From contig JAQVZL010000012.1 of assembly GCA_028708215.1 (NCBI GenBank), forward strand, positions 1-34,921: a stretch of 34,921 bases of DNA, read 5' to 3'. Below the pieces are notes generated by a model that did not search any database, was not told the origin of the DNA, and saw only the letters and a list, made by a program, of their open reading frames with translations. This DNA is from Bacteroidales bacterium (GTDB lineage: Bacteria; Bacteroidota; Bacteroidia; Bacteroidales; UBA932). Every line of letters begins with the position of its first letter. The stretch's first letter is position 1. Both the position numbers and the translations under genes were made by a program. Positions 19,019-22,568 of this stretch are shown here, piece by piece.

Positions 19019-20578
19019 ATGAAAAAAGTTGTAAAAATAAGTATTGGGAATTTGGCTTTTACTGTAGAAGAAGATGGATTTCTTCTTATTAAAGGTTATT
19101 TAGGTGAAATCCAAGATCATTACCAATCCAATGAGAATGGCCGCGAAATAGTAGAAGGTATTGAAGAGAGAATGGCCGAGCTTTTTTTAGAAAAAGCCCC
19201 AGCAGGATCTGTTGTTACAATTTCTATTGTTAAAGAGGTAATTGCAATATTAGGGAGGCCCTCTGCAATTGACCAAGAGCAGGGAGATGTAAGATTTGCC
19301 TCTTCTAGTTATAATTATAAAAGAGTTCCAAAAAAGTTATATAGAAATGGGCAAGATAAAGTTTTAGGAGGAGTTTGTTCTGGTCTTGCAGCATATAGCT
19401 CACTAGATGTTGCACTTGTAAGAATTTTATTTGTTATTCTTTTAATAGGGTTTTCCTTTTTTGGATTGATTCATATTGGTGGCGGTTCCTTTATGATAAT
19501 TGCATATATTATAATGTGGATAGTAATTCCCCAAGCTAGAACTGTTGAGCAGAGGTGCGCTATGTTTGGAGAACCTATGGACCTCTCCTACATAAATCAA
19601 AAAATTGGGAAGGGAGCTACCAACCAAAGCTCTGGAGCTCTAAAAGGTTTAGGAAGGCTTCTCTCTATAGTTTTCTCAGTTTTATTAATTATTATTTCGG
19701 TTTCGGGTTTAGCAACTCTTTCATTTTCTTTGTTTGGGTTAGAAGTTTTTAAAGGGGTAATCCCAATTAATATGCTAGATTATCTCTATTTAGGAGTTGA
19801 AAACGGGCTCTTTCTTAAAATAGCAATAATCTCTTTTCTAACTCTTCCATTTTTAGGGATGCTATACGGTGGGATACAGCTTTTGTTTAGATTTAAAACA
19901 ACGCGAGTTAGACCAGGTTTGATTATATTGCTTTTATGGATAATTTCTCTTTTTGCAGTAATATTCTATACAGTAAAATCTACAAGACCATATTGGGATA
20001 GTGCAGAATACAGTGGGCAAATAACCTTAAATCAAGAAGTAGATACTATTTACGTTAGATTTATCTCTAAAACTCCAATGCCAGAAGAGAGAGTACTTTT
20101 GAGTGCAGATTATTCAGATTTCTTTGTCTCTTGGATGGATAATAACAGAGAGCTTGTTGTTTTTCCCAATCTTAGAATAGTAAGGCAGAGCCCCAAAGCA
20201 GAAAGGGTATTAAAGTATAGAACCTATGCACATGCCAACAGCTATTCATCTGCATTAGTAAAAGCACAAAGAGCTGTTCCCTCTATACAAATTAAAGATT
20301 CTGTAATAACAATATCTCCTAAATATTACAATAGGCAACAGAAGTGGGATGGTCTTTCTCAAGAGATATCATTAAATATCCCAGAAAGTGTAATAATAAT
20401 TGTAGAAGAGCCACTGCAGCACAGTTTTAATAAAGTTATTAGAAAAGAAGGAATATTTAGATTTCATAAATGGGAGCGAAACTTTGAAAGAAAATTTGAC
20501 AATTGGGAACATCGCTTCGAGAGAAAACTAGATAGGTTTGAAGATAGAATAGAGAGATTCGAAGAGCGTTTCGATTAA
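19019..20578 (+). CDS. PspC-domain membrane protein, long form with extra TM segments and charged tail
   Basis: The 519-aa product shares its first 170 residues with the short PspC protein upstream (N-terminal domain, then RNGQDKVLGGVCSGLAAY and two membrane segments). It then has three more likely membrane segments (about 215-240, 258-285 and 298-322). Next comes a beta-rich region (about 335-480) that may be outside the membrane. The tail is a highly charged helix (HKWERNFERKFDNWEHRFER, then more of the same), with aromatic and Arg/Glu residues spaced like a coiled coil. The gene starts 5 nt after padR, so it is co-transcribed. The role is probably in envelope stress; the tail's partner is unknown. 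Confidence 0.87.
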   Translation: MKKVVKISIGNLAFTVEEDGFLLIKGYLGEIQDHYQSNENGREIVEGIEERMAELFLEKAPAGSVVTISIVKEVIAILGRPSAIDQEQGDVRFASSSYNYKRVPKKLYRNGQDKVLGGVCSGLAAYSSLDVALVRILFVILLIGFSFFGLIHIGGGSFMIIAYIIMWIVIPQARTVEQRCAMFGEPMDLSYINQKIGKGATNQSSGALKGLGRLLSIVFSVLLIIISVSGLATLSFSLFGLEVFKGVIPINMLDYLYLGVENGLFLKIAIISFLTLPFLGMLYGGIQLLFRFKTTRVRPGLIILLLWIISLFAVIFYTVKSTRPYWDSAEYSGQITLNQEVDTIYVRFISKTPMPEERVLLSADYSDFFVSWMDNNRELVVFPNLRIVRQSPKAERVLKYRTYAHANSYSSALVKAQRAVPSIQIKDSVITISPKYYNRQQKWDGLSQEISLNIPESVIIIVEEPLQHSFNKVIRKEGIFRFHKWERNFERKFDNWEHRFERKLDRFEDRIERFEERFD

Positions 20579-20598: not shown

Positions 20599-20787
20599 TT
20601 AATGAAAATCTTTCTCAAGTAAAAAAGCAATATCTGCTGTTATAGGCCTCTTCCCTTTTAAAATTTCATTCAAAAAAGAGGCCTTTACACCTAATTATTT
20701 GGCTAAATCCTTTTGGTGTAGTACTCACTTAGAAAGCTTCATATCTGAATCAAATTCTCTAAATTCACTTATCTTATGTACTGTCAG
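20599..20787 (-). pseudogene. HigA-type (XRE) antitoxin remnant with two in-frame stops
   Basis: Read on the minus strand in one frame, this stretch codes a degraded HigA-type antidote protein. It reads ISEFREFDSDMKLSK, stop (TGA, 20725-20727), VLHQKDLAK, stop (TAA, 20695-20697), LGVKASFLNEILKGKRPITA, then DIAFLLEKDFH and the final stop. HigA antitoxins have QKELA..LGV...LNEILKGKRPITADIALLLEKALG, so the match to the helix-turn-helix is very good. It is cut short after LLEK compared with the family, and the stops leave no usable reading frame. No HigB toxin was recognised next to it. The ORF track missed it because of the stops. Confidence 0.75.
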
Positions 20788-20853
20788 TAGGTTAGAAGAG
20801 GAGGGTTTGTAGATTTAAGTTTCCCACTCTGTAACTTGTTGACACAAAATCAT

Positions 20854-20984
20854 CCATCAGATGAATTAGCATGTTGCTTACTTGCAGGGGCTTGCATAGT
20901 GTAGAAGTCTTGAAATAGCTGTTTATAGAGTTTTTTACTATGGCAAGGGTCTCATTTGTAGATAGTTGCTAATTTATCTGATGG
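20854..20984. repeat. Inverted repeat pair, 18-nt arms
   Basis: CCATCAGATGAATTAGCA (20854-20871) and TGCTAATTTATCTGATGG (20967-20984) are reverse complements at 17 of 18 positions, 95 nt apart. They lie in the left half of the nested repeat element and could form a separate stem. Confidence 0.85.
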
Positions 20985-21106
20985 ATAAAATTATCTGATT
21001 AGAATTTTACCAGTACATTATTTCATGTTCTAGCTATTTGCTAGTTGTGGTGTGGAAGACGATTTTTCGGGAGATGATTGCTCATAACTTACTTACAGTA
21101 TGGTAG

Positions 21107-21152
21107 TTAGCTTTTGAAAATAAGCCCTTTTGAGCTTATTTTCAAAAGCTAA
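21107..21152. repeat. Perfect 19-bp inverted repeat with 8-nt loop
   Basis: TTAGCTTTTGAAAATAAGC (21107-21125) and its exact complement (21134-21152) flank the loop CCTTTTGA. It forms the centre of the nested element. No T-run follows the stem on either strand, so it does not look like a simple terminator. Confidence 0.92.
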
Positions 21153-21377
21153 ATGCCTAGATACTAGGTATTTACGTACAATCATCTCCTGGCAAAGTTT
21201 GCTTTGCTCTGCTAGGCATAAAGCAACAGCTAGCAACTAGCAGCAAATAGCTAATAACCAACATCATTATAAGAAATTACATAAATAAAATAAACATTAT
21301 TATGAGAAGCAAAGCTAGGTGGGAAACTTTAGTGGTTTATTTATTATTTAATAAAGCTATCTAACATGGTTTTAGTT

Positions 21378-22568
21378 TTAGCTTATAACGCCCAGCTCTT
21401 TGCCTACTTTAGTGAATGCAGCTACGCATTTGTTTAAATGTTTGATTTCGTGCCCTGCGCTAATTTGTACACGAATACGTGCTTGATCTTTAGGAACAAC
21501 TGGGAAGTAGAAGCCAATAACATATATTCCCTCTTCTAGCATTCTCTCTGCAAATTTTTGGGATAATTTTGCATTGTAGAGCATAACTGCACAAATAGCA
21601 GATTCAGTTGGTTTTATATCGAAACCTGCTGCTATCATTTTGTTTACAAAATACTCTGTATTGGTGTGCAGTTTGTTTTGAAGTTCATTGGTTTCAGACA
21701 TTAGATCAAACATTGCACTTCCTGCTGCTGCAACCATAGGGGGGATTGAGTTAGAGAAGAGATATGGACGAGACCGTTGGCGTAACATATCTATTATCTC
21801 TTTTTTGCCTGTAGTAAAGCCACCAATAGCTCCGCCAAATGCTTTCCCTAGGGTGCCAGTAATAATTTCTATTTGCCCAATTAGGTTAAAGAGTTCTGTA
21901 GTTCCTTTCCCTTTCTCTCCTACAACACCTGCAGAGTGAGACTCATCTACCATAATCATAGCGTTGTATTTATTGGCTAGTTCATAGATTTTATCTAGTG
22001 GTGCTACGTTGCCATCCATAGAGAAAACGCCATCTGTAACAATTATACGAAACCGTTGAGCTTGAGATACTTTAAGGCACTTTTCTAACTCTTCCATATT
22101 GGCATTTGCATATCTATATCTTTGTGCTTTGCAGAGCCTAACTCCATCTATTATAGATGCGTGGTTAAGAGAATCAGAGATAATTGCATCTTCTTCTGTA
22201 AGTAGAGGCTCAAAAACACCACCATTTGCATCGTAGCAAGATGCATATAGAATAGTATCTTCTGTACCAAAAAATTGAGCTATTTTCTTCTCAAGTTCAA
22301 GGTGGTAATCTTGTGTCCCACAAATAAAGCGTACGCTAGACATGCCGAACCCTCTTTCATCTAAAGCCTTTTTTGCTGCTTCTACAAGAACTGGACTATT
22401 AGATAGTCCAAGGTAGTTATTGGCACAAAAGTTGAGAACTTCTTGGCCAGAATCAACTTTAATAGACGCTTGCTGGGGTGTTACAATTACTCTCTCTTCT
22501 TTGTAAAGGCCAGCTTCTTCTATTGATGTTAGTTCCTTCTGAAGGAACTCTTTAAAGTTTGTATACAT
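21378..22568 (-). CDS. kbl: Glycine C-acetyltransferase (2-amino-3-ketobutyrate CoA ligase)
   Basis: This 396-aa enzyme is a PLP-dependent alpha-oxoamine synthase. Kbl cleaves 2-amino-3-oxobutyrate with CoA to glycine and acetyl-CoA, the second step of threonine breakdown. NFCANNYLGLSN (about residues 46-57), SVRFICGTQDYH (about 78-89), IMVDESHSAGVVG (PLP-contacting Asp and His), and ITGTLGKAFGGAIGGF with PLP-binding Lys242 are all family motifs. Length is exactly typical. Threonine dehydrogenase (tdh) is not next to it. Related synthases (BioF, SPT) are possible, but RFICGT and the overall match favour Kbl. Bacteroidetes also use SPT for sphingolipids, and this is the main alternative. Confidence 0.9.
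   Translation of the reverse strand: MYTNFKEFLQKELTSIEEAGLYKEERVIVTPQQASIKVDSGQEVLNFCANNYLGLSNSPVLVEAAKKALDERGFGMSSVRFICGTQDYHLELEKKIAQFFGTEDTILYASCYDANGGVFEPLLTEEDAIISDSLNHASIIDGVRLCKAQRYRYANANMEELEKCLKVSQAQRFRIIVTDGVFSMDGNVAPLDKIYELANKYNAMIMVDESHSAGVVGEKGKGTTELFNLIGQIEIITGTLGKAFGGAIGGFTTGKKEIIDMLRQRSRPYLFSNSIPPMVAAAGSAMFDLMSETNELQNKLHTNTEYFVNKMIAAGFDIKPTESAICAVMLYNAKLSQKFAERMLEEGIYVIGFYFPVVPKDQARIRVQISAGHEIKHLNKCVAAFTKVGKELGVIS

Follow-up and report, generated by a model that had tools for sequence, protein, structure and literature searches.

A chimeric MITE with IS4/ISPepr1-type ends probably occupies the longest gene-free gap of a Bacteroidales contig

The window analysed here, a stretch of 34,921 nucleotides from an uncultured Bacteroidales genome, contains between two convergent genes a gap that a preliminary description had marked for its nested inverted repeats, and the question is whether a MITE, a foldback element, a cruciform site or a long structured RNA lies in it. 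We concluded that positions 20814-21332 very probably represent a non-autonomous MITE that arose by fusion of two element types (A and B), was moved in trans by an IS4 (ISPepr1-type) transposase and acquired its central hairpin by template switching. The gap is the longest stretch of the window without genes (799 bp). The features in and around it are:

19019-20578, plus strand: PspC-domain gene, left flank of the gap, convergent with kbl
about 20599-20805, minus strand: relic of a decayed HTH_3 (HigA-like antitoxin) gene (PF01381, E = 1.6e-6) with in-frame stops
21378-22568, minus strand: kbl-like gene of the aminotransferase fold, right flank of the gap

The HTH_3 relic adjoins the MITE and had been overlooked; positions 20599-20805 are therefore not plain spacer. 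Relatives of the kbl product assign the host to uncultured Bacteroidales, the nearest named record being that of Rikenellaceae bacterium UBA12406 (86% protein identity). The distance between the PspC-domain gene and kbl ranges from -8 to +81 bp in 13 relatives that share this gene order, compared to 799 bp here. The comparison with empty sites that had been proposed was thus performed and, judged by the gene gap, revealed an effectively empty PspC-kbl site in these 13 relatives, the exact empty site not being resolvable at such divergence.

All four arm pairs of the preliminary description were found in the sequence, and an additional internal inverted repeat that it had missed was identified:

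20817-20827 and 21319-21329: outer arms, matching at 11 of 11 positions
from about 21031 (TAGCTATTTGCTAGTTG) and ending at 21253 (CAACTAGCAGCAAATAGCTA): second arm pair, with a 3-nt insertion
21070-21080 and 21179-21189: third arm pair
21107-21125 and 21134-21152, plus strand: arms of the central hairpin (part of 21107-21152), perfect at 19 of 19 positions
20852-20871 and 20967-20986, plus strand: arms of the additional inverted repeat (95%) in the type-A module, spanning 20852-20986

Since the additional pair falls in the left part of the element, off-centre, the repeats do not all share one centre, contrary to what had been described. The stretch folds much more stably than its dinucleotide shuffles (z = -6.6 on the plus and -9.0 on the minus strand), and its structure clearly exceeds what is expected by chance. 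No match above the gathering score was obtained when the stretch was searched against Rfam.

The genome that contains the window is a 1.90-Mb Bacteroidales MAG in 112 contigs, about 90% complete. When positions 20780-21360 were used as a query, as had been advised in order to find further copies, 76 matches at about 40 places of this genome were obtained, and these correspond to recurring blocks, not to whole copies. There are 35 exact occurrences of the 13-mer TAAAGTTTCCCAC and 62 with at most one mismatch, compared to 4 of the reversed control pattern. The outer arms turned out to represent the terminal inverted repeats (TIRs) of the element, with the sequence CTAAAGTTTCCCAC(C), as the preliminary description had supposed; the limits of 20817 and 21329 given there have to be shifted, as the true ends are located 3 bp further out (20814 and 21332). 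Thirteen other copies, 129-689 bp in size and with mixed end types, are bounded by both TIRs. None of them contains a transposase reading frame, and in the single-TIR loci of the genome only ordinary genes and no transposase were seen. The window element itself, with a size of 519 bp, likewise has no transposase gene, its longest open stretch comprising 51 aa. Three subterminal end types and one internal unit recur:

E1: CCTGTAACTTGTTGACACAAAAT
E2: TTGCAACTAGCAGATAAACA
E3: TAGCTTTGCTTCTCATAATAATG
21070-21189, plus strand, in the window: C unit, palindromic, 120 bp (GGAGATGATT...AATCATCTCC), at least 31 copies in the genome, 31 aligned

Type A has the arrangement E1-E2 and a size of about 250 bp (L010 and L011), and type B the arrangement E2-C-E3 (L009 and L033). 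Some C copies occur outside the type-B context, and most C copies are located within other elements. TIR ends are located 5-8 bp from the ends of C units at loci L010, L023, L046 and L078, a recurrence that suggests a hot spot of insertion at the ends of the C unit.

Alignment with these types resolved the window copy into the following parts:

20814-21332, no strand assigned: whole chimeric MITE copy, 519 bp, delimited by repeat-family boundaries, TIR positions and type A/B alignments
20814-20827, plus strand: left TIR, TTTAAGTTTCCCAC, decayed at 2 of 14 bases of the consensus CTAAAGTTTCCCAC, both of them outer
20817-21055, plus strand: type-A module, 239 bp, with E1, the body and most of E2, its right end; identity of 86-87% with L010 and L011
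21054-21055, no strand assigned: fusion point
21054-21332, plus strand: type-B module, 279 bp, with 90% identity to L009 and E3 at its end, its own left part of about 119 bp missing
21319-21332, minus strand: right TIR, GTGGGAAACTTTAG, perfect consensus

Similarity to type A stops at 21055 and similarity to type B begins at 21054. At this junction lies the microhomology TGGGAAAC, which is common to the right TIR of type A (GTGTGGGAAACTTTAG) and the interior of type B (CCCTGGGAAACGATTTTC in L009). As the A and B alignments meet at the junction, the nested symmetry stems from the fusion together with the palindromic unit in one partner. Thus, the single symmetric nested element described earlier gave way to two fused MITE types, one of which holds a palindromic unit that is also found elsewhere. 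The arrangement E1-E3 of the window copy was found only once, and the fused element may thus never have been mobilised as a whole. We propose that a type-A MITE on the left would have been fused at a short homology with a C-carrying type-B MITE on the right, and that the product would still resemble one element because both outer TIRs survived.

As to the origin of the fusion, that an A-type element jumped into or beside a B-type element and a deletion followed has about an even chance of being correct, the alternative being recombination or a template switch between separate copies. Locus L010 holds an A-type element within a B-type element, right beside the C unit, which is consistent with insertion and deletion, as is the proximity of TIR ends to C units at the four loci named above. 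However, the window copy is flanked on its left by the gene relic instead of the left part of a B element, and on this route the left approximately 119 bp of B would have to have been lost together with the right TIR of A.

Across the two-ended copies, identity between left and right flanks displayed a sharp peak at 7 bp (p = 0.002 for the own genome, p = 5e-5 for own genome and relatives), while lengths of 4-6, 9 and 10 bp were not significant and lengths of 8 and 11 bp reached 0.02 in the pooled set. Exact 7-bp duplications in the own genome are ATATTCT (L020) and TTAACCT (L036). The flanks of the window copy, TTGTAGA and TGGTTTA, match at 4 of 7 positions, and the duplication of this copy is therefore unproven; formation of a 7-bp target duplication upon insertion is shown for the family and would extend to the window copy.

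Elements with related ends also occur outside the genome. Four genomes of the same genus contain TIR-paired elements of 171-554 bp that have CTAAAGTTTCCCAC[AG] ends and unrelated interiors, some of them flanked by exact 7-bp duplications (AGCTTTA at L183, TGTTGGG at L185). An autonomous element of 1655 bp was found in another genus of the same family (L177). It has the TIR CTCAAGTTTCCCACC and encodes a transposase of 481 aa that matches NCBIfam transpos_IS4_4 (E = 6e-119) as well as Pfam DDE_5 and DDE_Tnp_1 and carries the YREK motif YQIRWNIEVLNKENK (Y-2-R-3-E-6-K). A second element, of 1668 bp, from the same order (L198) has the near-matching TIR CTAAAGTTTCGCA and an exact 7-bp duplication (TTAATAA). 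The IS4 subgroup ISPepr1 is characterized by the ends YT-AA-YTT---A and direct repeats of 7-8 bp (De Palmenaer et al. 2008, PMC2266710, Table 1), and CTAAAGTTTCCCA fits this end consensus at 9 of 9 specified positions. By sequence, the TIR, the duplication length and the YREK motif all fit this subgroup. As no IS4_4 transposase homologue was found in the own assembly (about 90% complete) and the autonomous relatives belong to other genera, the mobilising enzyme can only be inferred; TIR sequence, duplication length and kinship point to an ISPepr1-type enzyme having moved the window family. Such an IS4-family transposase would act in trans and recognise only the terminal repeat of about 14 bp (CTAAAGTTTCCCAC), and the element would have been cut and pasted into intergenic DNA. 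The family would then have spread within the lineage, the transposase now being absent from the genome or unassembled in it.

Two other candidate parents were considered and rejected. An IS630/Tc1-mariner parent with a TA duplication was discarded, as DDE_3 (PF13358) is absent in the own genome and the duplication is 7 bp. A TIR pair 2003 bp apart in genome G011 (L185 1000-3002) was examined as an autonomous copy; its frames appear to represent an IS3-type insertion within a 554-bp MITE. Two overlapping frames of 154 and 307 aa at this locus resemble an IS3-type transposase, and the enclosing MITE keeps the exact duplication TGTTGGG. An element of 554 bp flanked by the identical 7-bp duplication AGCTTTA (reverse complement TAAAGCT) is present in two same-genus genomes (L183 128-681 and L184 995-1548), apparently as a shared orthologous insertion.

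The distribution of the family is narrow. No match to the window element was obtained in the 60 relatives searched, of which 24 belong to its own genus. The plasmid and phage collections searched gave no match either, and the exact C-unit pattern gave none in 84,980 GTDB genomes or viral contigs, from which the window's own record was possibly left out. When 149 genomes were searched with a covariance model of C, only one weak match was obtained outside the own genome (36.5 bits, E = 1.7e-4).

The central stem is fully paired (19 of 19) only in the window copy and imperfect in the other 30 of 31 C units. In the window hairpin, the 5' arm is identical to the consensus of the family, and the 3' arm carries five changes that jointly perfect the stem. 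This one-armed rewriting is the product expected of template switching at imperfect palindromes, a process described in PMC8794818, and the hairpin thus appears to result from homogenisation of an imperfect stem by a template switch, in which one arm would have been copied onto the other during replication. A mirror case is located at L028 469-589, with four changes in the 5' arm, a 3' arm at consensus and 18 of 19 pairs. Across the C copies, paired positions amount to 94.7% of cells compared to 93.6% in shuffles, with 23 versus 10 double-changed cells, and 1 of 500 shuffles reached as high a value; this modest covariation may have the same cause.

Could the symmetry itself be the functional unit, as in a foldback element or a cruciform-forming site with long symmetric arms? 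Several arm pairs are roughly centred on 21129, and the perfect 19-bp hairpin fits such a unit. However, the outer arms are merely a TIR of about 14 bp, and subterminal E1 and E3 are unrelated to each other beyond it, so that long arms do not make up most of the element. Moreover, the second arm pair spans two different modules, the hairpin is imperfect in the 30 other copies, and no nested symmetry is seen in the other TIR-bounded copies (types A and B). We regard this explanation as very improbable.

An explanation that deserves somewhat more weight, yet is still unlikely, is that selection maintains the C unit and its carrier MITEs because they act as a structured RNA or as a transcription terminator at the 3' ends of genes, mobility being only the means of spread. 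Of 36 insertion sites that could be classified by a crude gene calling, 19 are in convergent, 14 in tandem and 3 in divergent gene gaps. Any chromosome contains roughly as many convergent as divergent gaps, so that 19 to 3 represents a genuine bias (about 0.0009 in a two-sided binomial test). A role as terminator is a possible cause, and the finding of two minus-strand sites that resemble terminators (0.4 expected), the slightly better pairing of the C hairpin and the highly stable fold are in line with it. However, selection against promoter disruption would yield the same bias and is its simplest cause, and the covariation can have arisen through template switching or through the common ancestry of the copies. 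In addition, the copies diverge freely outside the stems, 148 relatives are without C apart from the one weak match, and Rfam gave no hit. A bolder version, in which C has been domesticated as a structured RNA or two-way terminator and has used MITEs to reach gene 3' ends genome-wide, its stems being partly maintained by template switching, appears a little less probable still. In contrast, the MITE option of the preliminary description, in which the outer arms are the terminal repeats, holds and agrees with the many copies, the shared TIRs, the 7-bp duplications of the family, the effectively empty site and an autonomous IS with matching TIRs. The foldback, cruciform and structured-RNA options of that description are less supported and not needed.

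The window copy is, in this MITE reading, a chimeric element with IS4/ISPepr1-type ends, and the family to which it belongs is new and restricted to its lineage but of a well-known kind. With the ISPepr1 group (PMC2266710) it has in common the terminal repeat alone, and it codes for nothing. The family as a whole shares with this group the ends, the 7-bp duplication and a related transposase with Y-2-R-3-E-6-K that is assigned to IS4 by NCBIfam; however, the transposase is not in the assembly, and the autonomous relatives (1655-1668 bp) slightly exceed the typical 1500-1600 bp. The MITEs of Porphyromonas gingivalis (BrickBuilt, MITE239 and MITEPgRS; PMC4596501) also belong to Bacteroidales, are gene-less, occur in tens of copies, include one MITE nested in another and have TIRs matching IS elements, in their case resident ones. 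They differ in having IS5-type TIRs and a 4-bp target duplication, and their interior holds tandem repeats where the window family has a palindromic unit. The MITE of Cardinium oGibbosus (PMC9769881) is likewise IS-derived and spread in a single Bacteroidetes lineage, but its IS982-type parent persists in the same genome.

The locus provides a clear case of MITE diversification, in which elements that share only a TIR of about 14 bp swap ends and interiors, nest and fuse, yet pass as one unit. It also ties an abundant gene-less family of an uncultured Bacteroidales to an IS4/ISPepr1-type transposase missing from the assembly, and provides 31 hairpins from a single genome for comparison, two of them with an arm that has apparently been rewritten to match the other. 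Further end types at L071 2994, L086 255, L074 2016, L078 2078 and L018 505 share only the terminal repeat CTAAAGTTTCCCACC, and more element types must therefore exist than the three described. At L035 1501-1851 (G000:C60:46302-46647), the same 119-bp MITE end is present on both sides of a run of N, which probably reflects a duplication made by the assembly at a repeat.
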